Assembly (NCBI GenBank): GCA_024277475.1
Contig: JAJRVC010000187.1
Coordinates: forward strand, 1-13,281
Direction of reading: 5' to 3'
DNA length: 13,281 nucleotides
Origin: Deltaproteobacteria bacterium
GTDB lineage: Bacteria; Desulfobacterota; Desulfobacteria; Desulfobacterales; JAFDCJ01
The notes beneath the pieces are model-generated. The model did no database searches. It was not told where the DNA came from and saw only the letters and a program-made list of their open reading frames with translations. Positions within the stretch are counted from its first letter, which is position 1, and each line of letters opens with the position of its first letter. Positions 1,814 to 13,281 of the stretch are shown here, in pieces. A program made the translations under genes and the position numbers.

Positions 1814-4399
1814 TTATCCTTCCTTATAATTGCTGGGTTGGTCCTTTTCAGCCGGCCCGGCCTGATTTATAAATTTTTCAAGATACCGTTCAATATCGGC
1901 ATCAGTTTTCAACAATACATCCAGCTGTCGTGTAAAGCCGATTAACCTGCCGATCAGATAAAGATTACGGCTGATCTGTTTGTCCGTTAAATCTATGGCG
2001 CGTGCATTTACCAGGTCCCCGTTTACCTTTACTTTAAAGCCGGCCTTTTCCAGTATGGTTTGCAACAGTGCCGCTCTTCTGGAGCGCCGGGTGATGTCGG
2101 TTACCCCACCGGCAAATCGAAAAGAAATATAATTGCTTTGCGGCTTGGGCCCCACCGCGGCTTCTACCACTGTAAAATGATACCCCAGCGGCAGACTTAA
2201 ATTGACGTAATCGGCGCCGATTACTCCCAGGTTGACTCCCGGCAGGTTATTTCCCAGGACTTCTGAACTCTGGGTTCTGGTGACACTGGACATCATCCCT
2301 TTAAAGTCCAGCGATATGGGGTCCATGTTCCAGGTGCCGGGGGAACTCAAGCCGGCCCAGATTGTCTGCATTGGGACGGAAGTGATCTGATCAGGGGCGA
2401 CATGGGTTTGCTGGCCGGCTTCCGGGGCAATTCCTCCGCCGAGATCGATCAGGATAAGATCAAGGGGAATCTCCGATTTCAGACACTTGCCGCCGCGTTT
2501 AAGAAAAACCCGCGGGTTGGATCCGGTCTGCAGCAACGCTCGAAATGCTTTTTCATGTACGAAACGCATGATGTCATGAAATGTTCGGCACCCGTTAGGG
2601 GTAAAGTCGGGCGCATTGGGATCCGTCAGGTAGAGGGGAGCGATTTTTTTCAGCAATCTGCGCAATACCTGAAATTCATGAGTAATTTCAAAAACAGGCT
2701 CTTCCAGCAGTTGGTGATGCACCAGTTCCTCGATACGGTCTTCATAAATAATGTTACGTTCAGCGTCTACCGTGATCAGTTGATCCTGCTTGAATACCCG
2801 GGTGGCGGTTTCAGTTCCTACGATGGTCGGCACCTTAAATTCCCGGGCTACGGTGGCCATATGTCCGGTGGTAGTGCCGATGTCGGTTATGATGGCGCTG
2901 GCCCGGGGGATGATCTCCGCCAGCCTGGGCGGCGCATAGCGTGAAACCAGAACGGCTCCGGTTGGAAATCCGCCCAGATCATCGTTGTCGGTGACGATCC
3001 GGACGGGTCCGGCACCGATGCCCCGGTAGGCGATCATCCCCTTTTCTTTTAACAGGATACGGTGTTGCTTTATAACTTCGCTGAGTTCGGGGCGCTGCAG
3101 GCGCTTAGTGGACTGCATTCTAAGCGGCCGGGCCTGCAATATCCACAGCCGCCCCCGGTCATCCAGGCTCCACTCCACATCCATGGGTTTCTTGAAAAAC
3201 CGTTCCAGGATCAGGCCCGCCTCTGTGATTAAGACCGTTTCTTGGGGCAACAGGCAGGCCTTGTTGCGGAGTTCCTCCGGCACCTCACGTGCCGGACCGG
3301 TTTTCAGAGGCGCCAGCATCCATTTCTTTGAACCAATTTCCTGATGTGTAACCGCATGAGGTGAATTGCGTGAAACATAGAAAGTGTCCACGGCAGCCTG
3401 CCCTTCCGCCACAACCCTGCCCAGCCCCCAGTTTCCGCTCAGGATGCATTCCGGCCGATCCGGGTTGTTAGGGTCAAGGGTATACAAAACTCCCGCCACC
3501 CGGCTGAGCACCATGGTCTGGTACAAAACCGGCATGGCCATCTCCATTTGAAAAAGATTCATTTTCAGGCGATAGGCCAGACCGGCCGGATTGTAAAGAC
3601 TCGCCAGCACTTTTTTAAAGGCCGACAACAGTTCACCGAAACGGACATTTAAGAAAGAATCATGAAGCCCGGCAAAACTCAGCTCACCGTCTTCGCCCAC
3701 GGCGCTGCTGCGAACCGAGAAGTAGCACCCCTCGGTTTTTCCATCACAGGTTTTATTTGCCGCCTGGAGGATTTCACGCCGGATGTTGGGCGGTATGTCC
3801 CCTCCCAGGATCATGAGCCGGATGGCAGTGGCAACTGATTCAACGGTTTTCTCTTCTTTTTTATAGGCTTCGATTAAAGGCGCAATCTTGTCGAAAAGAT
3901 TGTTATAGGCCAAATAATCCCGAAAGCAGCCGATGGCCGCCACGAAGCCGCCTGGAAAATCTATTTTCGGCAGGTTGATCATTTTGGACAGGCTATAGGC
4001 TTTGCAACCGACCGTATCCTCCATACCCTCATCGATTTCATGAAAATAATAGACCCGTCGGGCCTCACGGATAGCGATTTGCCCCGACAGTTCGATCTCC
4101 AGTTCTTTGGCCAGTTTTTCTATGACATCGTAGAGTATCAGAAACTGGTTGTTGGTTATAAAATTCAAATCATAGGCATTGGCCAGCACCAAATCCTTGA
4201 GTTTGCGCGCACTGTCGGACAGGTATTTGCGATCAAAGACAAAATCACCCCCCATCTTGCCGTCCATATCGGCAATCAACTCCATGGCAGCGTCGTTTTT
4301 TTTAAGGATATTCTGGAAGCGTTTAAACAACTCTGCAAAAGGGATCTGTTCGCGGCCCTTACCGCCAAAAATTTTTTTTATGAGTTGAACCGTTTGCAT
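1814..4399 (-). CDS. PEP-synthase-like protein lacking the PEP-binding barrel
   Basis: An 861-residue protein related to phosphoenolpyruvate synthase and pyruvate phosphate dikinase. Residues about 1-120 are a helical N-terminal region of no recognised family. Residues about 125-430 form the ATP-grasp PEP/pyruvate-binding domain, with YFSVRSSAVGEDGELSFAG (226-244) and WILQARPL (419-426). Residues about 455-555 are the swivelling phosphohistidine domain, with the conserved histidine at 513 in TTTGHMATVARE. After that, a canonical synthase would carry a TIM barrel that binds PEP; here residues 570-850 show none of its motifs and are a different, unrecognised domain. Conversion of pyruvate to PEP is therefore doubtful; ATP-dependent phosphorylation of His513 remains plausible. 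The ATG follows the previous stop by 17 bases and has no clear Shine-Dalgarno, so coupling is likely. A receiver gene follows two bases after the stop. Confidence 0.88.
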   Translation of the reverse strand: MQTVQLIKKIFGGKGREQIPFAELFKRFQNILKKNDAAMELIADMDGKMGGDFVFDRKYLSDSARKLKDLVLANAYDLNFITNNQFLILYDVIEKLAKELEIELSGQIAIREARRVYYFHEIDEGMEDTVGCKAYSLSKMINLPKIDFPGGFVAAIGCFRDYLAYNNLFDKIAPLIEAYKKEEKTVESVATAIRLMILGGDIPPNIRREILQAANKTCDGKTEGCYFSVRSSAVGEDGELSFAGLHDSFLNVRFGELLSAFKKVLASLYNPAGLAYRLKMNLFQMEMAMPVLYQTMVLSRVAGVLYTLDPNNPDRPECILSGNWGLGRVVAEGQAAVDTFYVSRNSPHAVTHQEIGSKKWMLAPLKTGPAREVPEELRNKACLLPQETVLITEAGLILERFFKKPMDVEWSLDDRGRLWILQARPLRMQSTKRLQRPELSEVIKQHRILLKEKGMIAYRGIGAGPVRIVTDNDDLGGFPTGAVLVSRYAPPRLAEIIPRASAIITDIGTTTGHMATVAREFKVPTIVGTETATRVFKQDQLITVDAERNIIYEDRIEELVHHQLLEEPVFEITHEFQVLRRLLKKIAPLYLTDPNAPDFTPNGCRTFHDIMRFVHEKAFRALLQTGSNPRVFLKRGGKCLKSEIPLDLILIDLGGGIAPEAGQQTHVAPDQITSVPMQTIWAGLSSPGTWNMDPISLDFKGMMSSVTRTQSSEVLGNNLPGVNLGVIGADYVNLSLPLGYHFTVVEAAVGPKPQSNYISFRFAGGVTDITRRSRRAALLQTILEKAGFKVKVNGDLVNARAIDLTDKQISRNLYLIGRLIGFTRQLDVLLKTDADIERYLEKFINQAGPAEKDQPSNYKEG

Positions 4400-4416
4400 C
4401 TTGTATAATGCTCAAA

Positions 4417-5181
4417 TCAATGGGCCTCTGAGCGCCCGAAAAACAGTCCCATGACGGCTCCGACGACCAGCGCAATTACAACACACAGTATACCATAGAT
4501 GAGTTCGTTGTTGTATGCCAGTTCGTGAATGCTCCTGATGGCTCCCACCTCCTCCACCCGGAAAGGATGAACCGACCGGCTTAATATCCGGTTTTGCTCC
4601 AGTATCGTTGTGGAAATCCGGTACTCACCGGGAACTGTAGCCGGAGGAAAGTGAAAGGTGGTCGCGAAAGTTTTGCTCTTTTGGCTTTTCGGTGTGTATT
4701 GGATCGCATCTTCCTGCTGGACATACAGGTACTCGGAACGTTTCAGTTTAATAAATTGATCAAATATCATTTCCCGGTCGAGATTTTCAGGGCGAATGGC
4801 AATGATTTGCCTCAGATGCCGGATCCCAACTCCCAGAGATGGTAACTTTGGCCCCCATTTTTGAGCATTCGGCAAAAGCAACGCGTAGAGGAACGGTGCC
4901 TTTTCCAATTCCACTTTACCACGGTTCATCCAGAACGGTCCGACCCGGCCCTTGATATTGAATTTTGCATCTTTTTGCGGCCCGATAACTTCAATTATAA
5001 TGTCAGCGCCGGCCGGCAGCGACCCGGAAAGCGTTATATCCTGGCCGGCAAAAAAAGTTCCGATTCCCAGCTGTTCCGGCATAATTTTCAACTCGGCGTT
5101 TTGAGAGGTCTGGGCGCTGGGGACACCCATAATGACCATGATAAAAAACCACCCTATTATTTTTATCCCTTGGTTCAGCAT
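4417..5181 (-). CDS. TIGR02186 / PF09608-type membrane-anchored protein
   Basis: A 254-residue protein with an N-terminal signal peptide or anchor (hydrophobic 7-20, then PSAQTS), a mostly beta-rich extracytoplasmic region (about 28-210) and one C-terminal membrane helix (about 226-248, ending GLFFGRSEAH). It contains GRVGPFWMNRGKVELEKAPF, resembling the conserved tryptophan region of the TIGR02186 family as I remember it. That family is of unknown biochemical function and is commonly encoded beside TauE/SafE-type permeases, as it is here. It probably acts as a periplasm-facing partner of the permease. The start has a strong GGAGGTGA formed by the last codons of the permease gene, whose stop is three bases upstream, so the two products are likely made in fixed ratio. 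Family assignment is from memory of sequence character and context, not from a search. Confidence 0.8.
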   Translation of the reverse strand: MLNQGIKIIGWFFIMVIMGVPSAQTSQNAELKIMPEQLGIGTFFAGQDITLSGSLPAGADIIIEVIGPQKDAKFNIKGRVGPFWMNRGKVELEKAPFLYALLLPNAQKWGPKLPSLGVGIRHLRQIIAIRPENLDREMIFDQFIKLKRSEYLYVQQEDAIQYTPKSQKSKTFATTFHFPPATVPGEYRISTTILEQNRILSRSVHPFRVEEVGAIRSIHELAYNNELIYGILCVVIALVVGAVMGLFFGRSEAH

Positions 5182-5184
5182 GGA

Positions 5185-6111
5185 TTAGTCACCTCCGTAG
5201 TAGGACAGCAGAAAGTGGGGATGCAGCAAAAGGCCTACCAACATTTTTACCATAACAATGAGAACAATCGATGCCAGAAATATTTTCAGTTGATCGCCCT
5301 TCAGCCGCCGGCTCAATTTCACTCCGACCTGGGCTCCGATAGTGGAACCCACCAGCAAAAGAAGGGCCAGGGCAAAGTCGACGGTGCGGTTGGAGTAGGC
5401 CTGCATGATGGTCACATTCACGCAGGTAAACAGAATTTGAAACAGACTGGTCCCCACCACGACGTGCATCGGCATCCGGAGCAGATAAACCATAATGGGC
5501 ACCATGATAAAACCACCGCCGACACCCATGATGGCAGCCAGGATGCCCACAAACCCGCCGAGAACAAGCGGGACAACGGGTGACAGCACAATTCCCGACC
5601 GGTCAAAGCGTGTCTGATAAGGAAGGCGGCCGATCAGTCTGGCATAAGCGGTCTGCTTTTGTGCTGCCGGGGCCGTCTCCTTTTGTTTCACCGTGCGAAG
5701 GCTTTGCAGACTTTCCATAAACATGTAACTGCCCACAACACCGAGCATCAACACGTAAGTGATCTGGATCAGAAAGTCGGCATTGCCGAGCTGACGCAAA
5801 ACTTTGATGACCTGAACGCCCCCCGTGCCTCCCAGCACACCGCCGATGAGCAGATAGGTGCCCATTTTGAAATCAACATTTCCCAAGCGGTAATGGGCAT
5901 AAGTGCCCGAAGCGGACGCTGCCACGATCTGGTTGGAATCGGAAGCGGCTGCTACCGTGGGCGGAATTCCAATCATGATGAGCAAAGGGGTCATCAGAAA
6001 ACCGCCGCCGACCCCGAAAAGGCCGGACAGCAGTCCAACGAGAAACCCCAGGCCGATGATCACCGGCAAAAGTACGCTGTGCTGTGCGATCGGCAAATAG
6101 ACGTGCCACAT
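5185..6111 (-). CDS. TSUP-family (TauE/SafE-type) anion permease, copy 1
   Basis: A 308-residue polytopic inner-membrane protein with about eight hydrophobic segments in two homologous halves. Each half opens with the family signature: SGLFGVGGGFLMTPLL (29-44) and AAIMGVGGGFIMVPIM (192-207). A charged cytoplasmic loop (about 137-172) joins the halves. Characterised TSUP proteins move sulfite, thiosulfate, sulfolactate, sulfoacetate or related small anions; the substrate here is unknown. The start is ATG at 6109-6111, with AAAGGAG five bases upstream. An in-frame GTG two codons earlier overlaps that ribosome site and is rejected. It is followed after three bases by the TIGR02186-type gene and preceded by a histidine kinase gene 57 bases upstream, so its expression and perhaps activity are tied to the two-component module. 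Confidence 0.92.
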   Translation of the reverse strand: MWHVYLPIAQHSVLLPVIIGLGFLVGLLSGLFGVGGGFLMTPLLIMIGIPPTVAAASDSNQIVAASASGTYAHYRLGNVDFKMGTYLLIGGVLGGTGGVQVIKVLRQLGNADFLIQITYVLMLGVVGSYMFMESLQSLRTVKQKETAPAAQKQTAYARLIGRLPYQTRFDRSGIVLSPVVPLVLGGFVGILAAIMGVGGGFIMVPIMVYLLRMPMHVVVGTSLFQILFTCVNVTIMQAYSNRTVDFALALLLLVGSTIGAQVGVKLSRRLKGDQLKIFLASIVLIVMVKMLVGLLLHPHFLLSYYGGD

Positions 6112-6116
6112 ATCCA

Positions 6117-6123
6117 CTCCTTT
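6117..6123 (-). promoter_or_regulatory. Shine-Dalgarno AAAGGAG fixing the permease start
   Basis: AAAGGAG on the minus strand precedes the ATG at 6109-6111 by five bases. Its last G is also the first base of an in-frame GTG (6115-6117), so the GTG cannot use this site. The ATG is therefore preferred. Confidence 0.7.
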
Positions 6124-6168
6124 CTCATCTGACTCTGCAATCTGCTATAATTATAACCTTGAGGATAT

Positions 6169-7602
6169 CTACTCATGACGGCTCTTTTCATGGACCGGGA
6201 GGACAACGGTAAAGGTTGTCCCGCTGCCCGGTATGCTTTTCACTGAAATCCGGCCGCCATGTTTTTTAATAATTCCGTAACTTACCGACAGCCCCAGACC
6301 GGTGCCCTTGCCCACATCCTTGGTGGTAAAAAACGGATCGAAGATGTGGGGCAAAATATCTTTTGCGATACCCGATCCGGTGTCTTTGACTTGTACCTTG
6401 ATCTTGCCGTTATCTTCGAGCTGCGCCTGAATAGTCAGATCCCCGCCGTCTTCCATGGCATGCACGGCATTGGTGATCAGATTTAAAAAAACCTGTTGCA
6501 GACCCTGGTGGTTGCCGGTTATGCGGGGAAGATTATCGTCAATTGCATCATGCAACGTCACATGGGACAATTTGATATGATTATCGGCGATGCGCAGGGT
6601 TTCCCGCAACAGGACGGCCAGGTCGAATTCCTTGTGAACCGATGTTTGCGCTCGGGAAAACTCAAGCAGGTTCTTGACAATTTCGCTGGCCCGTATGGCC
6701 TGTTTAAGAATGTCATTGGTCAACTGCGCCTGTCTTTTCTCGGTTACTTTACGGTTGCTGGAAAGAACATCAGCGGTTAAAACAATGTTGTTGATCGGGT
6801 TGTTCAATTCATGGGCGATACCGGATACCAGGGTCCCTATGGAGGCAACTTTACGGGAGTGGATGATCTGTTCTTCCCGGGATTCCAGCTCAAGTGCCAT
6901 GCGGTTAAAAGCGAGTACCATATGATTCACCGGCCGCTGATTTCTTGCGGCATAGGAAATCGGGCTAAAATCGCCGCGGGCCACTTTTTCCATTGCCTTT
7001 TCAATCAAACCGAAGGGCTGGACAACGTTTGAGATGATGATTTTGGCCCCGATCAGAAACAAAAGCAGCATGGCACCCATAAAGATAAGCGGCCATTGTA
7101 GTGCATTTTTAGCCGCCCGGGCGACCCGCTGCCGCTGTACCCTTAAAAGCGTATCGGCTGCATCGACCACATCTTTCCCCGCCGTTCTGAGTTTTGCCTC
7201 CACGCGTTCGTTGACGGTTAAAGATAGGGACTCTTTGTAAAAATTCTCGAATTCTCCGTATACCCGCAGTGTTTTCCCTAATTGGGCAATATCGGATTCA
7301 AGAGATGATTTCTGAAATTGCACCGAAGCTTTTGAAAACAATCCGATTGCCTGCTCATAGTAAAAACGGCTGGAGGCGCCACTGTCCATGTCGTGGTAGA
7401 GCAAATAATTTTTTTCATATCTTCGGACTTCAAGAACCGTATTGTATAAATCTTCTGCGAGTTCGAAATTCAACAACCGCTGGTTGAGTTTGGTAATCTC
7501 AAAATAAATGACAGGAATATTCAACAAAAAGATGGCAATGCCGAGATAAATGAAAAGTCTGAGTTTTAGCTGCAAGGTAATAGATGACATCAATCGACTC
7601 AT
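6169..7602 (-). CDS. Membrane sensor histidine kinase, complete
   Basis: A complete 477-residue sensor kinase. It has TM1 (about 16-36), a periplasmic helical sensor (about 38-168) with [10 protein letters not shown] near its start, TM2 (about 170-192), a HAMP linker (about 193-245), a HisKA domain with [10 protein letters not shown] and phospho-acceptor His264, and an HATPase_c domain with N-box [11 protein letters not shown] (Asn374, Asn378), DTGSG (407-411), FDPFFTTK (421-428) and GKGTGLGLS (431-439). All catalytic motifs are intact. The EKNY-type motif after TM1 resembles helical-bundle sensors of the 4HB/HBM/CHASE3 class, which bind small molecules such as organic acids; this is inference. 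No reporter or output domain follows, so the phosphate must go to a separate receiver, most simply the one encoded just upstream. The ATG overlaps the stop of a tiny upstream frame as ATGA and has only a weak ribosome site of its own. An in-frame stop just upstream rules out a longer form. Confidence 0.95.
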
Positions 7603-7718
7603 AATCGATTCTTTTTATATTTTACAAGGTTGAGGCACTCAGGACACAGAGGTCTTGCTTCCTTATTGGCTCTGAATCCGGCTTCAGATAAATTTCGCCA
7701 AGGTGGTTGAATCACCAT
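7599..7718 (-). CDS. Possible 39-residue CxxC microprotein
   Basis: A short frame of 39 residues lies in the 141-base gap between a receiver gene and its kinase. Its C-terminal half reads [20 protein letters not shown], a single CxxC followed by basic residues, resembling half a zinc ribbon. Its TGA stop overlaps the kinase ATG as ATGA, the classical coupling arrangement, and the kinase lacks a strong ribosome site of its own. Against it, the ATG has no evident Shine-Dalgarno, and two cysteines alone would not complete a zinc site unless it dimerises. It is not a recognised family. The alternative is an untranslated spacer with a chance open frame. Confidence 0.3.
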   Translation of the reverse strand: MVIQPPWRNLSEAGFRANKEARPLCPECLNLVKYKKNRL

Positions 7719-7743
7719 CGGTAAAAAGCTTTCAGCCCCGGGA

Positions 7744-8142
7744 TCAATCGCCGGCGGGAGACTTTTGGTCTTCCTGTTGCAAAGCTTCCACTGCCTTGGC
7801 GATGGCCTGTCGCATCTCTTTGAGCTTAAACGGTTTGACAATAAAATCAAAGGCTCCCTTGGTCAGTGATTCCCGGGCCACTTCCAGGGTGGCGTAACCG
7901 GTTATCATGATGACCTTGGTGCGTCCGCTTTTCTCGCGGACCAGTTCAAGAATTTCAATACCGTCCATATCGTCCATGCGAATGTCAGTGACCACGATAT
8001 CAAAAACCCGGCCTTCGATGCGTGCGACGGCCTGAATCGGGTTAATAAATGTTTCGACACGGTGGCCTTCTTTTTCCAGTGCGGTTTTGAGCCGTTGGCC
8101 CACGATGGGTTCATCGTCCAGGATTAAAATTTCCAGTGACAT
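7744..8142 (-). CDS. Receiver-only response regulator (copy 3)
   Basis: A 132-residue stand-alone CheY-like receiver. Key residues are Asp9-Asp10, phospho-acceptor Asp53 (IVVTDIRMDDMDG), Thr81 (MITGYA) and Lys103 (VKPFKL). A short polar tail (121-132) is the only addition, and there is no output domain. It is closest to copy 1: both have DIVVTD, RMD, DGIE, TKVIMITGY and GAFDF in register, so they arose by duplication. The start ATG has AAGGAGA at good spacing. The gene sits 28 bases after the second TSUP permease and 141 bases before the complete kinase, the expected partner. Confidence 0.95.
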   Translation of the reverse strand: MSLEILILDDEPIVGQRLKTALEKEGHRVETFINPIQAVARIEGRVFDIVVTDIRMDDMDGIEILELVREKSGRTKVIMITGYATLEVARESLTKGAFDFIVKPFKLKEMRQAIAKAVEALQQEDQKSPAGD

Positions 8143-8170
8143 TTTTATCTCCTTTTACGAGTATAAGACA

Positions 8171-9274
8171 TCAAACTGTCTGAGTGGACACGGGTTTGAC
8201 CACCCTCAGACTTTTTTGAATTCCCCTTCTTTGCCGATAGGCGCGAATGACATGGTAGAGGATCAACAGGGTGCCGGTGATTCCGCTGGCAAACAGAAAA
8301 AACTTGCTGATCAGGTTAAAATACCTGTCCCAGTTCGGATCGATTGAAAGATAACCCAGCTGGCGCAGGTACATGGGAATGGCAATGCCCCGGCTGAGCA
8401 CACACAGTATGATGATCACGCTGGTCACCAGGCGAATGTATCTCTCGTTGACCACCTTGACCCCGTAAACTCCCAGGTAAATTCCCAGCAACGAGCCCAG
8501 GTACAGCAACATGGTCAGGCGAATATCCACAAATCCCTGGAAGGCATAGCTCAGGGCGCCGTAGGCCCCCATGAACATGGCCAGATAAAGCTCGGTTCCC
8601 GTGGCCACCGCCGTGGGTACACCGAAAACATAAATCATGGCCGGAACCCCGATAAATCCACCAACACCGATGGTACCAGCCAGATATCCCGTGGCCACCC
8701 CCACCGGCGCCAGGATCCATACGCTTACTTTCGTATCGGCGACTTTGAAATAGATCATGGGTGGCAAATTAAAGCGCGCCAGGAAGTTGGCGATTTTTTG
8801 TGAGGGACCGGATCCTTCTTCCCCGTCCCCCGAGGGCCGCAGTACATCGCGCAGCATGGACAGGGCCACAACCAGGAGGATGCAGACAAAAACCAGGCTG
8901 ATATAGAGGTTGGCCCCGGCGCCCTTGGCCGCTCCGTGGCCGGCGCCGCCCTTGAAAAGAAAGCTGTTGATCCAGACCGCCAGCTGAATCCCCAGAACAG
9001 CGGTTATCAGCACACAGACAGCCAGTCGTTTGTCCACATTGCCGGCCTCGCCATGCTTGCGGGAGCCCACCATGGCCTTGCCGAATTTGTGGGTAATATT
9101 GCTGGCTACCGCTACGACCCCCTCGACGCCCAGATTCATCATACCCGGGGTCATGAAAAAAGCCCCGCCGCTGCCGATAAAACCACTTAACACCCCACCG
9201 ATAAATCCCAGCATCACGACCTGCAGCGCGGTGCCAAGATCGATTTGAATAAAATTCACTAGAAAATGGTGCAT
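8171..9274 (-). CDS. TSUP-family (TauE/SafE-type) anion permease, copy 2
   Basis: A 367-residue polytopic membrane protein of the TSUP superfamily, distinct from the other permease here. The half-motifs are SGFIGSGGAFFMTPGMMNLG (30-49) and AGTIGVGGFIGVPAMIYVFG (199-218), the second with one glycine fewer than the usual GVGGGF. It is about 60 residues longer than copy 1: a glycine/alanine-rich segment (109-120) lies before a membrane helix, a hydrophilic loop (about 146-182) joins the halves, and an extra C-terminal membrane helix (about 322-344) is followed by a basic tail. The substrate is unknown, but a sulfur oxyanion or organic sulfonate is typical for the family. GGAGG precedes the ATG by five bases. 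The 66-base gap upstream shows no convincing promoter, so it probably belongs to the long operon. Longer TSUP proteins of this kind are, as I recall, common in sulfate reducers. Confidence 0.9.
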   Translation of the reverse strand: MHHFLVNFIQIDLGTALQVVMLGFIGGVLSGFIGSGGAFFMTPGMMNLGVEGVVAVASNITHKFGKAMVGSRKHGEAGNVDKRLAVCVLITAVLGIQLAVWINSFLFKGGAGHGAAKGAGANLYISLVFVCILLVVALSMLRDVLRPSGDGEEGSGPSQKIANFLARFNLPPMIYFKVADTKVSVWILAPVGVATGYLAGTIGVGGFIGVPAMIYVFGVPTAVATGTELYLAMFMGAYGALSYAFQGFVDIRLTMLLYLGSLLGIYLGVYGVKVVNERYIRLVTSVIIILCVLSRGIAIPMYLRQLGYLSIDPNWDRYFNLISKFFLFASGITGTLLILYHVIRAYRQRRGIQKSLRVVKPVSTQTV

Positions 9275-9340
9275 GCTATCCTCCGTTGCAGGGACATTGC
9301 CCCGATTGGAATATTAAAACGTTCAGTACCTTAAAAGTCA

Positions 9341-10864
9341 TTAATCGATATCGATCAGCTTCAGAAGCAGGCCGGTAACCGTGCTGTATGTGTAAGCCAC
9401 CAGGGGAACAAACAATGCCACGGTAATAGCGCCTACCCATTTCCATTTGACATGGAGTTCGCCGCCCAAAAAGTTTAGGATCGGATTCTGGAAATGAAAC
9501 ACCAATGCATAGAGGCAGACCAGCGCCGCCGCATAAAGCAGGGCCTTGAGGGCTTGCTTTTTCCCGAACATAAAACGGGACTGCAGCTCATCGACGGTAA
9601 TGACGGCCGCCTTGAGCCGATCACGAATGCTCAGCCCCAGCTCCCGGGTCTGGCGTTTGCGGGTTTCAGCCCCTTTATCCAGAAAAAGATCGCCGAGGAT
9701 CACCAGGGAATAGTGGCTGTTTTCTTTAGCCGCCTCGATAATTTCGCTGGTGCCCCCGTATACCGTAATCCCTCCGGCAGAACGGCCGAGGGCCACCAGT
9801 TCTTCCTGGGTCGCAGCCAATCCACCGTCGTCTGCCAACGGTGCTTCGGCCTCGTCGTCTTCAACACCGCCGGTATACACCTTTTGGTCCGCTGGTTGCA
9901 ATCGGGGTTCATCGTCGGTGTGTGCAACCGCCTGACCGGCATCGGCGGTAGCCTTGTGAGGAACCAGGCGCAGCAGCTCCACGGCCGCCCCCCAGCGTTG
10001 GGCCAATCGCGTAATTTGTTTAAAACTTTCAGCCTTGGGATCAAAGGTCTCCTGAATCCAGAGAAGGTTGGTTTCGGCCATGGTGCACAGGTTTTCCCGG
10101 CAGCCCTCCAAGTCCTGGAGCACCTCGGAGATAGACTGGGCGGCGGCCTCCTGGCGCGGCATGTAGGTGACGGTCACCACGCCTCCCACGGCCCGCACCT
10201 CCAGGTCCAACCCACGGGTATGTTCATTTTCTGCCAGGCGCAAATGGGCCCGGGCGCCCAGGTACAGATCCTCCAGTCGCTTTGTACCGGCGGGAGTCGG
10301 CCGAAAGTCGGGCATTTCGGCGGTGTCGCACAGCAGCACGGACGCGTTGGCGAGGCTCATGTTCTGCAGGTTTAAAAATATGTCATATTGCCCCGGATCC
10401 TTCGCATCCTGCCGGTGTACGAAACGGACCCATTTTTCAATATCTTCATCGAGCTGATCAACATATTGCGCGGCCTTTTCCGGCGACAGACGCAGGTCTC
10501 GAACCACGTTGTCAATACGCATCTGCCGTGGAACCCCCAGGCCCACCCGCAGCCGATGGGACACGCCCGGCAAAAGCAGGTGACCGGCCCGGCCATAATA
10601 AATCAGGTTACCTTCCGTCGCATTTTCATAAAGTCTAGCGGTCACAAAGGCCAGATAAAGCTCCTTTTCCCGGGCCAGTTTTTCCGGAATGACCGGCGAT
10701 TTGACGATGGAGGTCTCCAGCCGGCTCAGCTTGATCCCCTGATCGTGTGCTTGATCCACCAGTTGCTCACGGCTGAACACCGGCCAACCGGTTTTACGCT
10801 CCAGCTCTTGGGCCAACTCCCGGCCGACACCGTGGGGGGAGCTGGAAATTAAAACTATCGGCAT
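9341..10864 (-). CDS. Cytidylate-kinase-like / BON-like / Usp-like fusion with two membrane helices
   Basis: A 507-residue multidomain protein. Residues about 1-190 resemble the cytidylate-kinase-like family (PF13189): an N-terminal strand and degenerate P-loop SSPHGVGRELA (8-18), and later YYGRAGHLLL (89-98). Residues about 197-260 look like a BON domain (LEVRAVGGVVTVTYMPRQEA, 221-240). Residues about 275-430 have an alpha/beta pattern like a nucleotide-binding universal stress domain (GGITVYGG, YSLVILGDLF, AAVITV), interrupted by an acidic low-complexity stretch (about 303-350). Two membrane helices close the protein (about 438-458 and 474-497). Cytidylate kinase activity is not assured because the loop lacks the first glycine of the P-loop. 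It may be a membrane-attached nucleotide sensor. GGTGG lies before the ATG. It follows the small stress-protein gene by 20 bases. Domain calls beyond the first are inference from pattern. Confidence 0.82.
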   Translation of the reverse strand: MPIVLISSSPHGVGRELAQELERKTGWPVFSREQLVDQAHDQGIKLSRLETSIVKSPVIPEKLAREKELYLAFVTARLYENATEGNLIYYGRAGHLLLPGVSHRLRVGLGVPRQMRIDNVVRDLRLSPEKAAQYVDQLDEDIEKWVRFVHRQDAKDPGQYDIFLNLQNMSLANASVLLCDTAEMPDFRPTPAGTKRLEDLYLGARAHLRLAENEHTRGLDLEVRAVGGVVTVTYMPRQEAAAQSISEVLQDLEGCRENLCTMAETNLLWIQETFDPKAESFKQITRLAQRWGAAVELLRLVPHKATADAGQAVAHTDDEPRLQPADQKVYTGGVEDDEAEAPLADDGGLAATQEELVALGRSAGGITVYGGTSEIIEAAKENSHYSLVILGDLFLDKGAETRKRQTRELGLSIRDRLKAAVITVDELQSRFMFGKKQALKALLYAAALVCLYALVFHFQNPILNFLGGELHVKWKWVGAITVALFVPLVAYTYSTVTGLLLKLIDID

Positions 10865-10884
10865 ATTGAACCACCCTTTCCCTT

Positions 10885-11280
10885 CTATAGGTTGTCGATG
10901 TTAGCTTTTCCCCTAACCTGAATGATCTGAGTGGAAACCCGCGGTATGATTTGGCGCAGGATGCCCTTCACGTGGCCTTCATCAGCACTGACCACGATGA
11001 GATCGATGAGTTCACTTTCTACCAGGCTGATGATTTCTTCCTCAAACCCATCTTCCCCAATGTGGTAGGAGACCTGCAGGCCTTCCTCACGGGCACCGTG
11101 GACGATATCCATCAGAACCTCCTCAACCCAGCTGTCGATCCGATGAGGATTGCCGAGCTGCCTGGAGAGAAGAATAAAAACTTTGGCCTGAATTCTTTCC
11201 GCCAGGGCCAGGGCATGGTAAAGTGCCTTGAGGTCTTTTTTTCCCGGATCTATGGGGACTAGAATTTTTTTTCGTGTCAC
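10885..11280 (-). CDS. Universal stress protein (UspA-like), single domain
   Basis: A 131-residue single-domain universal stress protein beginning with the family strand TRKKILVPIDPGKK, with the second core segment ELIDLIVVSADEG followed by GILRQIIPRVSTQIIQVRG. The ATP-binding Usp signature G-2X-G-9X-G(S/T) is only partly matched (GHVKG, then nine residues, then ST), so nucleotide binding is uncertain. The start is taken as GTG at 11278-11280, behind AAGGTGGAG. A TTG 23 codons upstream is rejected because it falls inside the predicted sigma-54 promoter and upstream of the expected transcript start. This is the first gene after that promoter and heads the operon; the cytidylate-kinase-like gene follows 20 bases later. 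It probably acts as a cytoplasmic stress or energy-responsive modulator. Confidence 0.85.
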   Translation of the reverse strand: MTRKKILVPIDPGKKDLKALYHALALAERIQAKVFILLSRQLGNPHRIDSWVEEVLMDIVHGAREEGLQVSYHIGEDGFEEEIISLVESELIDLIVVSADEGHVKGILRQIIPRVSTQIIQVRGKANIDNL

Positions 11281-11298: not shown

Positions 11299-11332
11299 TA
11301 GAAATTTCGGATAATATTTTGCTTTCTCCTTA

Positions 11333-11348
11333 ATCAAAATTTGTGCCA
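11333..11348 (-). promoter_or_regulatory. Sigma-54 (-24/-12) promoter for the operon
   Basis: The minus strand reads TGGCAC, five bases, then TTGAT. This matches the RpoN consensus TGGCAC-N5-TTGCW at all six -24 positions and at TTG, with exact spacing; the one departure is A for C in the -12 GC. The predicted transcript start is near 11322, giving a leader of about 42 bases before the UspA-like GTG. A sigma-54 activator is encoded immediately upstream. Confidence 0.72.
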
Positions 11349-11414
11349 ATTATAATATTAGTTTTAATTTTAGTCAGTTATAAGTCGACGGCCTCAATCG
11401 AGGATCCTGAAATT

Positions 11415-11429
11415 GTTTCAATTTGGAAC
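11415..11429. promoter_or_regulatory. Dyad site 1, likely activator or operator site
   Basis: GTTTCAATTTGGAAC is an imperfect dyad: seven-base arms around a central T (11422) with one mismatch. It is close to a second dyad centred exactly 80 bases further upstream. Its centre is about 100 bases upstream of the predicted sigma-54 transcript start, a typical distance for enhancer-binding proteins. Confidence 0.5.
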
Positions 11430-11445
11430 GATAACAATACTAACT

Positions 11446-11474
11446 ATTTTGTTGTGCTAATTTTAATGTATCAA
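11446..11474 (-). promoter_or_regulatory. Weak sigma-70-like promoter candidate
   Basis: The minus strand has TTGATA, a 17-base spacer and CAAAAT: five of six -35 matches and four of six -10 matches. It sits between the two dyads. In AT-rich DNA this can arise by chance, so it is only a candidate for basal transcription of the operon. Confidence 0.25.
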
Positions 11475-11494
11475 ACCAATTAGTTAACAATTTT

Positions 11495-11510
11495 GTTTCA
11501 AATTGAAAAC
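11495..11510. promoter_or_regulatory. Dyad site 2, likely activator or operator site
   Basis: GTTTCAAATTGAAAAC contains a perfect dyad, TTTCAA-A-TTGAAA, centred at 11502. With dyad site 1 it shares TGTTTCAA, then TTG, then AA in register. Its centre is about 180 bases upstream of the predicted sigma-54 transcript start. Confidence 0.5.
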
Positions 11511-11602
11511 GGAGTATTTACAGACAGCGAGGGCACAAGGAATGGGATCGGTTGGGTGTAAATCCGGATTTCGTAAATAGATAAAGCGTAGCGTCATCAA
11601 TA

Positions 11603-11644
11603 TTCGAAGTTCGACGTTGGGCGTTCGATGTTCGACGTTCAATC
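11603..11644. repeat. Degenerate 7-base tandem repeat (TTCGAYG-like)
   Basis: Six consecutive heptads read TTCGAAG, TTCGACG, TTGGGCG, TTCGATG, TTCGACG and TTCAATC. Similar TTCGACG/TTCGATG strings recur, as I recall, between genes of some Desulfobacterota genomes. The function is unknown; it may be a slippage-prone or dispersed intergenic element. Confidence 0.6.
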
Positions 11645-11683
11645 AATTCGCTGTTCCGGCCAGGCGGTGTTTCATGCGAACCC

Positions 11684-11697: not shown

Positions 11698-11751
11698 AAA
11701 GCGCCCCGTTTCATCAGAAAAAAAAATTATATTTTTGTAATAAATGATGAG

Positions 11752-11763
11752 GTTTCACACGAG
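11752..11763. repeat. 12-base direct repeat, copy A
   Basis: GTTTCACACGAG occurs here and identically at 11897-11908, 145 bases away in the same orientation. Flanking bases differ, so the shared unit is only the 12-mer. Confidence 0.5.
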
Positions 11764-11791: not shown

Positions 11792-11896
11792 TCTGATCAA
11801 AAAAGAAACTCTGAAAAAGTGAATATCGAATGACGAATAATATGAACTATAAAGTCAAACCCTTAGCAGCCGCACAAGCCAATACAGCTTAATGTA

Positions 11897-11908
11897 GTTT
11901 CACACGAG
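11897..11908. repeat. 12-base direct repeat, copy B
   Basis: This is the second identical GTTTCACACGAG, about 40 bases downstream of the sigma-54 activator stop in the direction of transcription. Together with copy A it brackets the inverted repeat at 11772-11791. Confidence 0.5.
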
Positions 11909-11949: not shown

Positions 11950-13281
11950 TCAGTCAAGACCCAGGCGTTTCATTTTGCGCCAAAGGGTCGTACGGGGTAT
12001 TTTCAGAATCTCAGCAGCGGATGCTTTGCGGCCACCGGTTTTAATCAGAACCTGTTGGATATATTCTTTTTCCTTTTCTGCCAGCGTGAGCCAGTGGCCG
12101 GATTCCAGGCTGCTGATGGAAAGCTGTTGCAGGTCACCGGGAAGATCCTGCGGCCCGACGGCCGTCCGATCCGTCAGGGCCACGGCCCGTTCGATAATGT
12201 TTTCAAGTTCCCGCACATTACCCGGAAAAGGGTATTGCAATAAAATTTCTAAAGCCTCCCGCTCAACCTCGGATACCGCTTTGCCGAACTGCCGGCTATA
12301 TTTGTTTAAAAAATGACGGATCAGCAATGCTATGTCATCTTTTCGGTCCCGCAACGGTGGTAGACCGATCAGAACTACGTTGAGCCGGTAGAAGAGATCC
12401 TCGCGGAACTGCCCTTTTTCCACTGCCCTCTTTAGATCCTGGTTGCCGGCGGCAATCAGGCGCACATCCAGCGGAATCGGTTTAATACCGCCCACCCGGA
12501 TCAGGCTGCGTTCCTGGACAAAACGCAGCAGTTTGACCTGCATGCTGGGGGGCATAGCGCCGATTTCGTCCAGAAAAATTGTTCCCCTATGGGCGGCTTC
12601 CAGCAGGCCGATTTTGGTGTCAACGGCTCCCGTAAAAGCACCTTTCTCATGGCCGAAAAGCTCATTGGCAATCAATTCTTCAGTAAATCCGCCGCAATTA
12701 AAACAGATAAACGGATTTTCCCTGCGTATCCCGAGAAAATGGAGGGCACGGGCGACCAGTTCCTTGCCGGTGCCGCTCTCCCCCTGTATGAGGACATTGC
12801 AGTTCAGGGAGCACACTTTTTTTACCAGACCGAGTACTTGCTGTATTGCCGGACTATGGCCGATAAGGTACTGTTGGCGTGATTGGGAAAAAAGAGCCTT
12901 TTTCAGCCGCTCCTTTTCCCGAGTCAGACTCACCTTCTCCAGGGCATGTGCGGCCAAAGACCGTAGTTCAGCCATTTTAAGTGGTTTGGCAAGGTAGTGA
13001 AAAGCGCCGGCGTGGATGGCTTCAACTGCCGTATCTACCGAGCCGTAACCCGTCATGACGATAACTTCGGTCTGGGGCTGGCGGTTTTTAATCTCTTTTA
13101 AGACATCCAGCCCGCTGATGCCCGGCAACCTGAGATCGCATAAAACAAGGTCAAAAAAAACCGACCGCATTCTTTTGGAGGCGGTTTCTCCGTCACCGAA
13201 AGTTTCAATGTCGTAACGATTTGGCCCCAAACCCCGCCGGATTGCCCGGCAGGCAATCGGCTCATCATCGATGATCGCCAC
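11950..13281 (-). CDS. Sigma-54-dependent NtrC-family response regulator, 5' end beyond window
   Basis: 443 residues are visible; only the first few are missing, since the first visible codons (VAIIDDEP) are already the first receiver strand. The receiver (about 1-118) has Asp5-Asp6, phospho-acceptor Asp49 (LVLCDLRLPG), Thr77 (MTGYG) and Lys99 (AKPLK). The AAA+ domain (about 138-370) has Walker A GESGTGKE (167-174), the sigma-54 contact loop GAFTGA (214-219), Walker B IFLDEIG (235-241), FREDLFYRLNV (292-302) and NVRELENIIERA (355-366). A Fis-type helix-turn-helix closes it (about 415-442, SAAEILKIPRTTLWRKMKRL). All residues needed for activation are present. It resembles AtoC/ZraR-type regulators, though the exact orthologue is unclear. 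It is the only protein in the window with a DNA-binding output and lies directly upstream of the sigma-54 promoter, making it the prime candidate activator. Confidence 0.95.
   Translation of the reverse strand: MAIIDDEPIACRAIRRGLGPNRYDIETFGDGETASKRMRSVFFDLVLCDLRLPGISGLDVLKEIKNRQPQTEVIVMTGYGSVDTAVEAIHAGAFHYLAKPLKMAELRSLAAHALEKVSLTREKERLKKALFSQSRQQYLIGHSPAIQQVLGLVKKVCSLNCNVLIQGESGTGKELVARALHFLGIRRENPFICFNCGGFTEELIANELFGHEKGAFTGAVDTKIGLLEAAHRGTIFLDEIGAMPPSMQVKLLRFVQERSLIRVGGIKPIPLDVRLIAAGNQDLKRAVEKGQFREDLFYRLNVVLIGLPPLRDRKDDIALLIRHFLNKYSRQFGKAVSEVEREALEILLQYPFPGNVRELENIIERAVALTDRTAVGPQDLPGDLQQLSISSLESGHWLTLAEKEKEYIQQVLIKTGGRKASAAEILKIPRTTLWRKMKRLGLD

Follow-up and report, generated by a model that had tools for sequence, protein, structure and literature searches.

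A candidate sigma-54 promoter with paired enhancer dyads beside an NtrC-family regulator gene in a Desulfobacterales contig

The regulator gene, the candidate promoter region and the predicted operon

The window, the whole 13,281-nt stretch of DNA that was analysed, carries a series of minus-strand genes in the order activator, a gap of ~670 bp, universal stress protein (USP), cytidylate-kinase-like protein (CMK), TauE, response regulator, kinase, a second TauE, Alph_Pro_TM, PPDK-like protein, regulators and kinase. The features discussed below are:

11953..13281, minus strand: NtrC-family response regulator (receiver, AAA+, Fis-type HTH); its start lies beyond the window and the gene is open at the window end
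12625-12642, minus strand: GAFTGA of the activator
11974-11994, minus strand: RTTLWRK of the activator
11950-11952, minus strand: activator stop codon
11494..11510, centre 11502, no strand assigned: distal dyad, predicted activator site, kept in relatives
11414..11430, centre 11422, no strand assigned: proximal dyad, predicted activator site, kept in relatives
11349..11413, minus strand: AT-rich spacer from proximal dyad to box
11333..11348, minus strand: sigma-54 -24/-12 element TGGCAC-N5-TTGAT
10885..11280, minus strand: USP gene, 131 aa, GTG start, first behind the promoter
9341..10864, minus strand: cytidylate-kinase-like protein (PF13189), 507 aa, predicted operon member
8171..9274, minus strand: TauE/SafE (TSUP) transporter, predicted operon member
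7744..8142, minus strand: single-domain response regulator, predicted operon member
6169..7602, minus strand: HAMP histidine kinase, predicted operon member
5185..6117, minus strand: second TauE/SafE transporter, start of the type-B module
4417..5181, minus strand: Alph_Pro_TM membrane protein (PF09608)
1814..4399, minus strand: PPDK_N/PEP-utilising enzyme-like protein

The activator gene lies upstream of the USP gene on the same strand, ~670 bp from its stop codon to USP. Its product scored above the cut-offs of PF00072, PF00158 and PF02954, the domain set of a two-component EBP, and contains GAFTGA and the Walker A/B motifs GESGTGKE and FLDEIG. An earlier reading made from the DNA letters alone (the sequence-only reading) had proposed an NtrC-family Fis-type activator directly upstream of the operon, and the receiver, AAA+ and Fis-type HTH domains and the GAFTGA found at 11953-13281 bear this out. 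Among the best 25 of 112 families, no named NCBIfam EBP equivalog (NtrC, AtoC, ZraR and others) reached its cut-off, and the protein is therefore not filed under any of these names.

The perfect TGGCAC, N5 spacing and TTGAT described in that reading before the UspA-like gene were found as an exact match at 11333-11348 on the minus strand. This is the sole match without mismatches in the window (0.006 expected from base composition); at up to 2 mismatches the window has 4 boxes versus 4.33 expected, and at this level the box does not stand out by itself. TGGCAC-N5-TTG has the GG of -24 and the G of -13. The -12 element, TTGAT, lacks the C at -12 that is usual, not invariable, in sigma-54 promoters. 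The USP start is likely GTG at 11280 (131 aa, P0001), preceded by a plausible Shine-Dalgarno sequence, AAAGGTGGAG, identified by eye, rather than TTG 11349, where the program-made list of ORFs starts the gene. Thus, the box lies 5' of the gene as had been claimed, with the start itself moved to GTG 11280, and we infer a transcript start of the USP operon near 11322.

Upstream of the box, both of the similar dyads noted before were recovered, with centres at 11422 and 11502, exactly 80 bp apart. The proximal dyad (TGTTTCAATTTGGAACG) and the distal dyad (TGTTTCAAATTGAAAAC) each match TGTTTCA-N3-TGAAACA at 12/14 positions, and the proximal centre lies 74 bp upstream of the T of TGGCAC. When the whole window was scanned, no other site scored at least 11/14, and the best-two dyad score of the 560-bp upstream region was matched by 0/300 dinucleotide shuffles.

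The region between the activator stop and the distal dyad also contains repeats. Two 17-nt direct repeats (ATGAGGTTTCACACGAG / ATGTAGTTTCACACGAG) lie 145 bp apart at 11747-11763 and 11892-11908. A dispersed repeat of the GAACGTCGAACATCGAAC type at 11574-11656, in an extra stretch that is missing in relatives, has many copies (82-94% identity) on contigs of four genomes (G012, G249, G256 and G285); some copies form inverted pairs ~100-150 bp apart, like a small mobile or REP-type element.

By gene content, the relatives fall into two types. Type A loci carry, as far as their DNA reaches, kinase, EBP, promoter, USP, CMK, TauE367 and regulator, with an EBP 63-73% identical to that of the window; type B loci carry kinase and EBP, promoter, USP, TauE310 and, where seen, Alph_Pro_TM and PPDK, with an EBP at 52-53% identity. 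One locus (L003) has a type-A EBP and USP, but its CMK-like genes are only distant ones. In the window, modules A and B are joined head to tail downstream of a single promoter (1814-11280); module B is without its own USP and dyads, and no second dyad pair for it was found in the window. Terminator-like matches between 4300 and 11950 were about as frequent as chance predicts (11 versus 9.9 expected), which fits one long transcript over A and B but does not prove it.

Recurrence of the layout among relatives

A contig scan with USP yielded 7 loci, and an order-wide search gave matches in 12/389 genomes; after removal of L008-L012, which repeat L001-L005, 16 relatives with 26-45% USP identity were compared. 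Closer relatives (60-84% USP identity) were seen as proteins only, and the contig of the nearest genome found (G012, CMK 85%) ends 39 bases before CMK. Two dyads scoring at least 11/14 were present in 15/15 relatives with enough upstream sequence (0/300 shuffles each); L005, at a contig end, showed one site of 10/14, reached in 19/300 shuffles. Upstream regions were scored with a sigma-54 consensus, and the top match lay 69-83 bp beyond the proximal dyad in 17/17 loci including the window: at 70-74 bp in 14/17, and at 69, 83 and 82 bp in L005, L006 and L007. Dyad centres were 79-83 bp apart in 12/16 loci (window included), 90 in L014, 41 in L006 and L007, and 22 in L013.

A search with CMK matched 25/389 genomes, 17 with at least 49.8% identity and 8 with at most 41.4%. 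Contig ends cut two loci of the first group (L109, L117), and all 15 that could be evaluated showed the two dyads, with a box 70-74 bp away, although in L120 a second box at 160 bp scores as high as the one at 74 bp. Twelve of the 15 share genomes with the USP-found set and 3 are new. In L114 and L115 the positions place the dyads 123 bp apart, wider than the automatic pairing allowed, and the box follows after another 73 bp. No USP gene was detected in L114, L115 and L121, where the CMK-like gene comes immediately behind the promoter module; L114 has ~217 extra bp between box and CMK. The C at -12 is missing in 15/17 CMK-type loci (14 of the first-set loci plus L114, L115 and L121). An rpoN gene (PF04552) was found in 19/19 relative genomes asked.

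Beyond the window, loci with the box, both dyads and a neighbouring activator gene were seen among Desulfobacterales MAGs, in one genome of a different order (G003), and in Desulforhabdus and Desulfovibrionaceae. No relative was found among viral contigs, and within the order of G003 the search found 0/85 at E<=1e-25, a cut that the known G003 match itself just missed. Conservation of box and dyads in related loci, named beforehand as a point on which the proposal could fail, was thus looked for and found in several groups. Comparison shows that, in many related genomes of sulfate reducers, the dyads and the predicted -24/-12 element are found together next to the gene of an orthologous NtrC-family response regulator.

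Several relatives also carry an IHF-like element in the AT-rich spacer. Summed over 17 loci its score was 124 (shuffle mean 115.4; 2/500 shuffles as high), and the window's own match is poor (6 of 9). We tentatively place an IHF site between proximal dyad and box, from the element of the relatives.

Proposed site choice by the activator and its sisters

Which protein reads the dyads? The EBP gene adjoins them, with the same helix, in all 18 relatives aligned, and the recognition helix is PRT[TS]LWR in 19/19 cognate EBPs (window included) as well as in L114, L115 and L121. The nearest other EBPs taken from two genomes (G485 and G486) have DRVSLWR, HRSTLHK or SKSLLQY at this position.

In 16 genomes, TGTTTCA-N3-TGAAACA with at most 1 mismatch occurred 43 times, versus 4 for a reversed control: 13 at USP promoters, 1 within a USP gene and 29 at other places. 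A second dyad of at least 11/14 within 150 bp was absent at all 29 of these isolated sites. Thus, the paired layout appears to mark the USP operon, and at this site strength a wider regulon was rejected. For two isolated dyads (L068, L071), a sigma-54 match of weak to moderate score (11-12) lies 71-83 bp away. With a loose pair pattern, matches arose in 133/389 genomes, mostly in seemingly coding or chance places; among 30 loci drawn from it, 7 had a pair scoring at least 11 at 70-95 bp, four of them at USP/TauE loci (L083, L087, L093, L096) and three not (L079, L080, L092). In L093 and L096 the box lies at 234 and 209 bp, respectively.

With the window activator as query (E<=1e-135), matches were obtained in 53/288 Desulfovibrionaceae genomes, and 52 were taken (G486 was already in the first set). 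All 52 regulators carry PRTTLWR. A TTTCA pair lay near 40/52 of these orthologous activators (6.25-8.4 kb examined), whereas 60 permuted half-sites averaged 0.07 and never exceeded 1 of 52 loci; the other 12/52 loci, with the same helix, had no TTTCA pair at threshold, and TTGCA pairs were reached in 12/52. Since the loci are related, these counts are not independent events. A strong sigma-54 box accompanied the pair in 40/40 loci: in 22 a box scoring at least 12 stood at 72-84 bp, and in 18, with dyads 62-65 bp apart, it stood at 240-277 bp. All 40 boxes end in TTGCT, in contrast with the 15/17 CMK-type loci without the C, although the score used rewards C and the contrast is therefore not selection-free. 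Desulfovibrio sigma-54 elements are given as tGGcacg and tTGCt in PMC4641369.

The geometry varies among loci. The 80-bp spacing proved typical of Desulfobacterales loci, but 22, 34-35, 41-42, 62-65, 84-85, 90 and 123 bp occur elsewhere; the short dyad-to-box distance, kept at 69-83 bp in the 17 first-set loci, is not universal. A strict helical-phase rule, in which 22, 41, 82 and 123 bp and a similar pair of loci at 80/90 would be about whole turns, was dropped after spacings of 34-35 and 62-65 bp, and a single fixed dyad-to-box distance was dropped in view of 209-277 bp in some loci.

The CMK loci of low identity (at most 41.4%) had no TTTCA pairs (0/8). Instead, six of the eight (L126, L128, L129, L131, L132, L133) carry paired TGTTGCA-N3-TGCAACA dyads at a spacing of 86-90 bp, and their sigma-54 box stands 72-87 bp away from the proximal one; neither kind of pair was seen in L125 and L130. 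The TTGCA pair was reached in 0/300 shuffles in all six loci. Because the two motifs differ by one base per half-site, shuffles alone do not separate them (TTTCA also gave 0/300 in L128, and TTGCA 0/300 in 4/5 TTTCA loci tested), but scores do in the six loci (22-25 versus 18-21). Beside the TTGCA dyads, the sister EBPs of L126, L128, L129, L132 and L133 have the helix [DN]R[VAS]SL[YW]R; the EBP of L131 is not in view. Two DRVSLWR paralogues (L024 and L025, the latter near a contig end) have neither dyad at 11/14 in the flanks examined, which speaks against a simple rule. Upstream of CMK, L128, L132 and L133 have a further, third site at 21-22 bp from the distal TTGCA dyad.

On balance we lean towards a switched code in Desulfobacterota USP/TSUP promoters of the same layout: PRTTLWR would read TGTTTCA-N3-TGAAACA, [DN]R[VAS]SL[YW]R would read TGTTGCA-N3-TGCAACA, and CMK-type promoters would keep their unusual -12 (TTG[A/T], 15/17). 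This reading draws on 5 sister EBPs, which may go back to a single evolutionary event.

Proposed control of the operon and its meaning

How would the operon be switched on? We propose, at a probability of about 0.85 and from sequence comparison, that the dyads and the box form an enhancer and a sigma-54 promoter, and that the neighbouring regulator, when phosphorylated, binds both dyads and drives the USP/kinase-like/TSUP-transporter operon. One dimer would bind each dyad through the PRTTLWR helix, and the bound regulator would assemble its AAA+ ring. DNA looping, possibly aided by an IHF-like bend, would then bring it into contact with sigma-54 polymerase at 11333-11348, and transcription from near 11322 would proceed through USP and, by read-through, the close-packed genes behind it. 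The sequence-only reading had proposed such control of the whole operon, and the recurrence of box, dyads and adjacent activator gene in relatives supports it.

Four other explanations were weighed. The dyads could be enhancers of this sigma-54 promoter for a different EBP encoded elsewhere: EBPs number in the dozens in related genomes (two of these gave 45 and 41 matches at E<=1e-60), and the D. vulgaris paralogues DVU0539 and DVU0946 have a common site, according to PMC3333781. We consider this improbable, as the EBP gene adjoining the dyads has the same helix in 18/18 aligned relatives, and where the helix differs, the site differs. Slightly less probable still is the alternative offered by the sequence-only reading itself, that the dyads are operators on a sigma-70-like promoter (CTGACT-17-TATAAT, 11349-11377) and the -24/-12 likeness is incidental. 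This promoter matches at 10/12, but such matches occur near chance (3 versus 1.9 expected), and its CTGACT falls where relatives have an IHF-like YTGATA. In addition, judged by eye among 14 aligned loci, TATAAT abuts the box in the window only, whereas the -24/-12 box recurs; we rejected this reading on these grounds.

A reading of the box as 5' USP coding sequence (MAQILI...) that is conserved at the protein level is very unlikely. The frame is open to 11349 and MAQ[IF]L[IF] extensions occur in 4/19 sequences (P0002, P0003, P0005, P0096), but a conserved box read in frame would give such extensions anyway; it was rejected because most homologues are called from a later codon (129-138 aa) and the box stands before CMK in three loci without a detected USP gene. 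Chance resemblance in an AT-rich intergenic region, which would suit the chance-level count of the box alone at 2 mismatches, is close to negligible given the shuffle and permutation controls and the recurring layout.

The enhancer and sigma-54 promoter arrangement that we favour is a well-known kind of switch, and the element is not new as a kind, a point on which the sequence-only reading needs correcting. The system is probably related to regulons mapped in D. vulgaris Hildenborough, where, according to PMC4641369 and PMC3333781, DVU0118 controls DVU0123-DVU0121 (transmembrane transport) and DVU0539/DVU0946 control DVU0542-0545 and other operons. As is proposed for the window, a two-component EBP lies beside a sigma-54 operon, which contains USP homologues and transporters in one case (DVU0542-0545) and transmembrane transport genes in the other (DVU0123-0121). 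Desulfovibrionaceae also include orthologues of the window activator that have TTTCA dyads nearby; the window differs in adding a CMK-like gene and fusing two modules. We infer that its regulator may be an orthologue of DVU0118 or of DVU0539/DVU0946. A published D. vulgaris promoter string had 0 matches in the 288 Desulfovibrionaceae genomes searched.

Two further systems invite comparison. Myxococcus xanthus NmpR is likewise an NtrC-like response regulator with dyad-symmetric paired enhancer sites, sigma-54 promoters and a USP target, but its site is GCGCA-N5-TGCGC with a preferred gap of 14-15 nt from one site to the next, and its regulon comprises several operons (PMC11841059). LurR of the D. 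vulgaris por operon is a neighbouring two-component EBP that has several sites upstream, and the -12 of the predicted sigma-54 promoter is TTGTT rather than TTGC; LurR uses a different 16-bp site at a lactate operon (PMC6456213). Among the papers listed by text searches (15 of 574 in one listing), which do not reach logos in figures, none was seen to name the TGTTTCA-N3-TGAAACA site.

According to PMC10102598, the D. vulgaris cluster DVU0539-DVU0545 responds to molybdate; DVU0542 and DVU0545 are universal-stress-protein homologues, DVU0543 is a PSE-family transporter, and a molybdate phenotype is described. By analogy, the similar make-up of this cluster suggests where the signal of the window operon might be sought. 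More broadly, activator, site and promoter would together form a regulatory rule for USP, TSUP and PEP-synthase-like operons in several Desulfobacterota groups. Of the new leads, the TTTCA/TTGCA switch with helix change is the most interesting: the pair offers a test of site choice by Fis-type HTHs of NtrC proteins and, if the switched code is true, would be a natural one-base-per-half-site specificity switch within one NtrC-type lineage.
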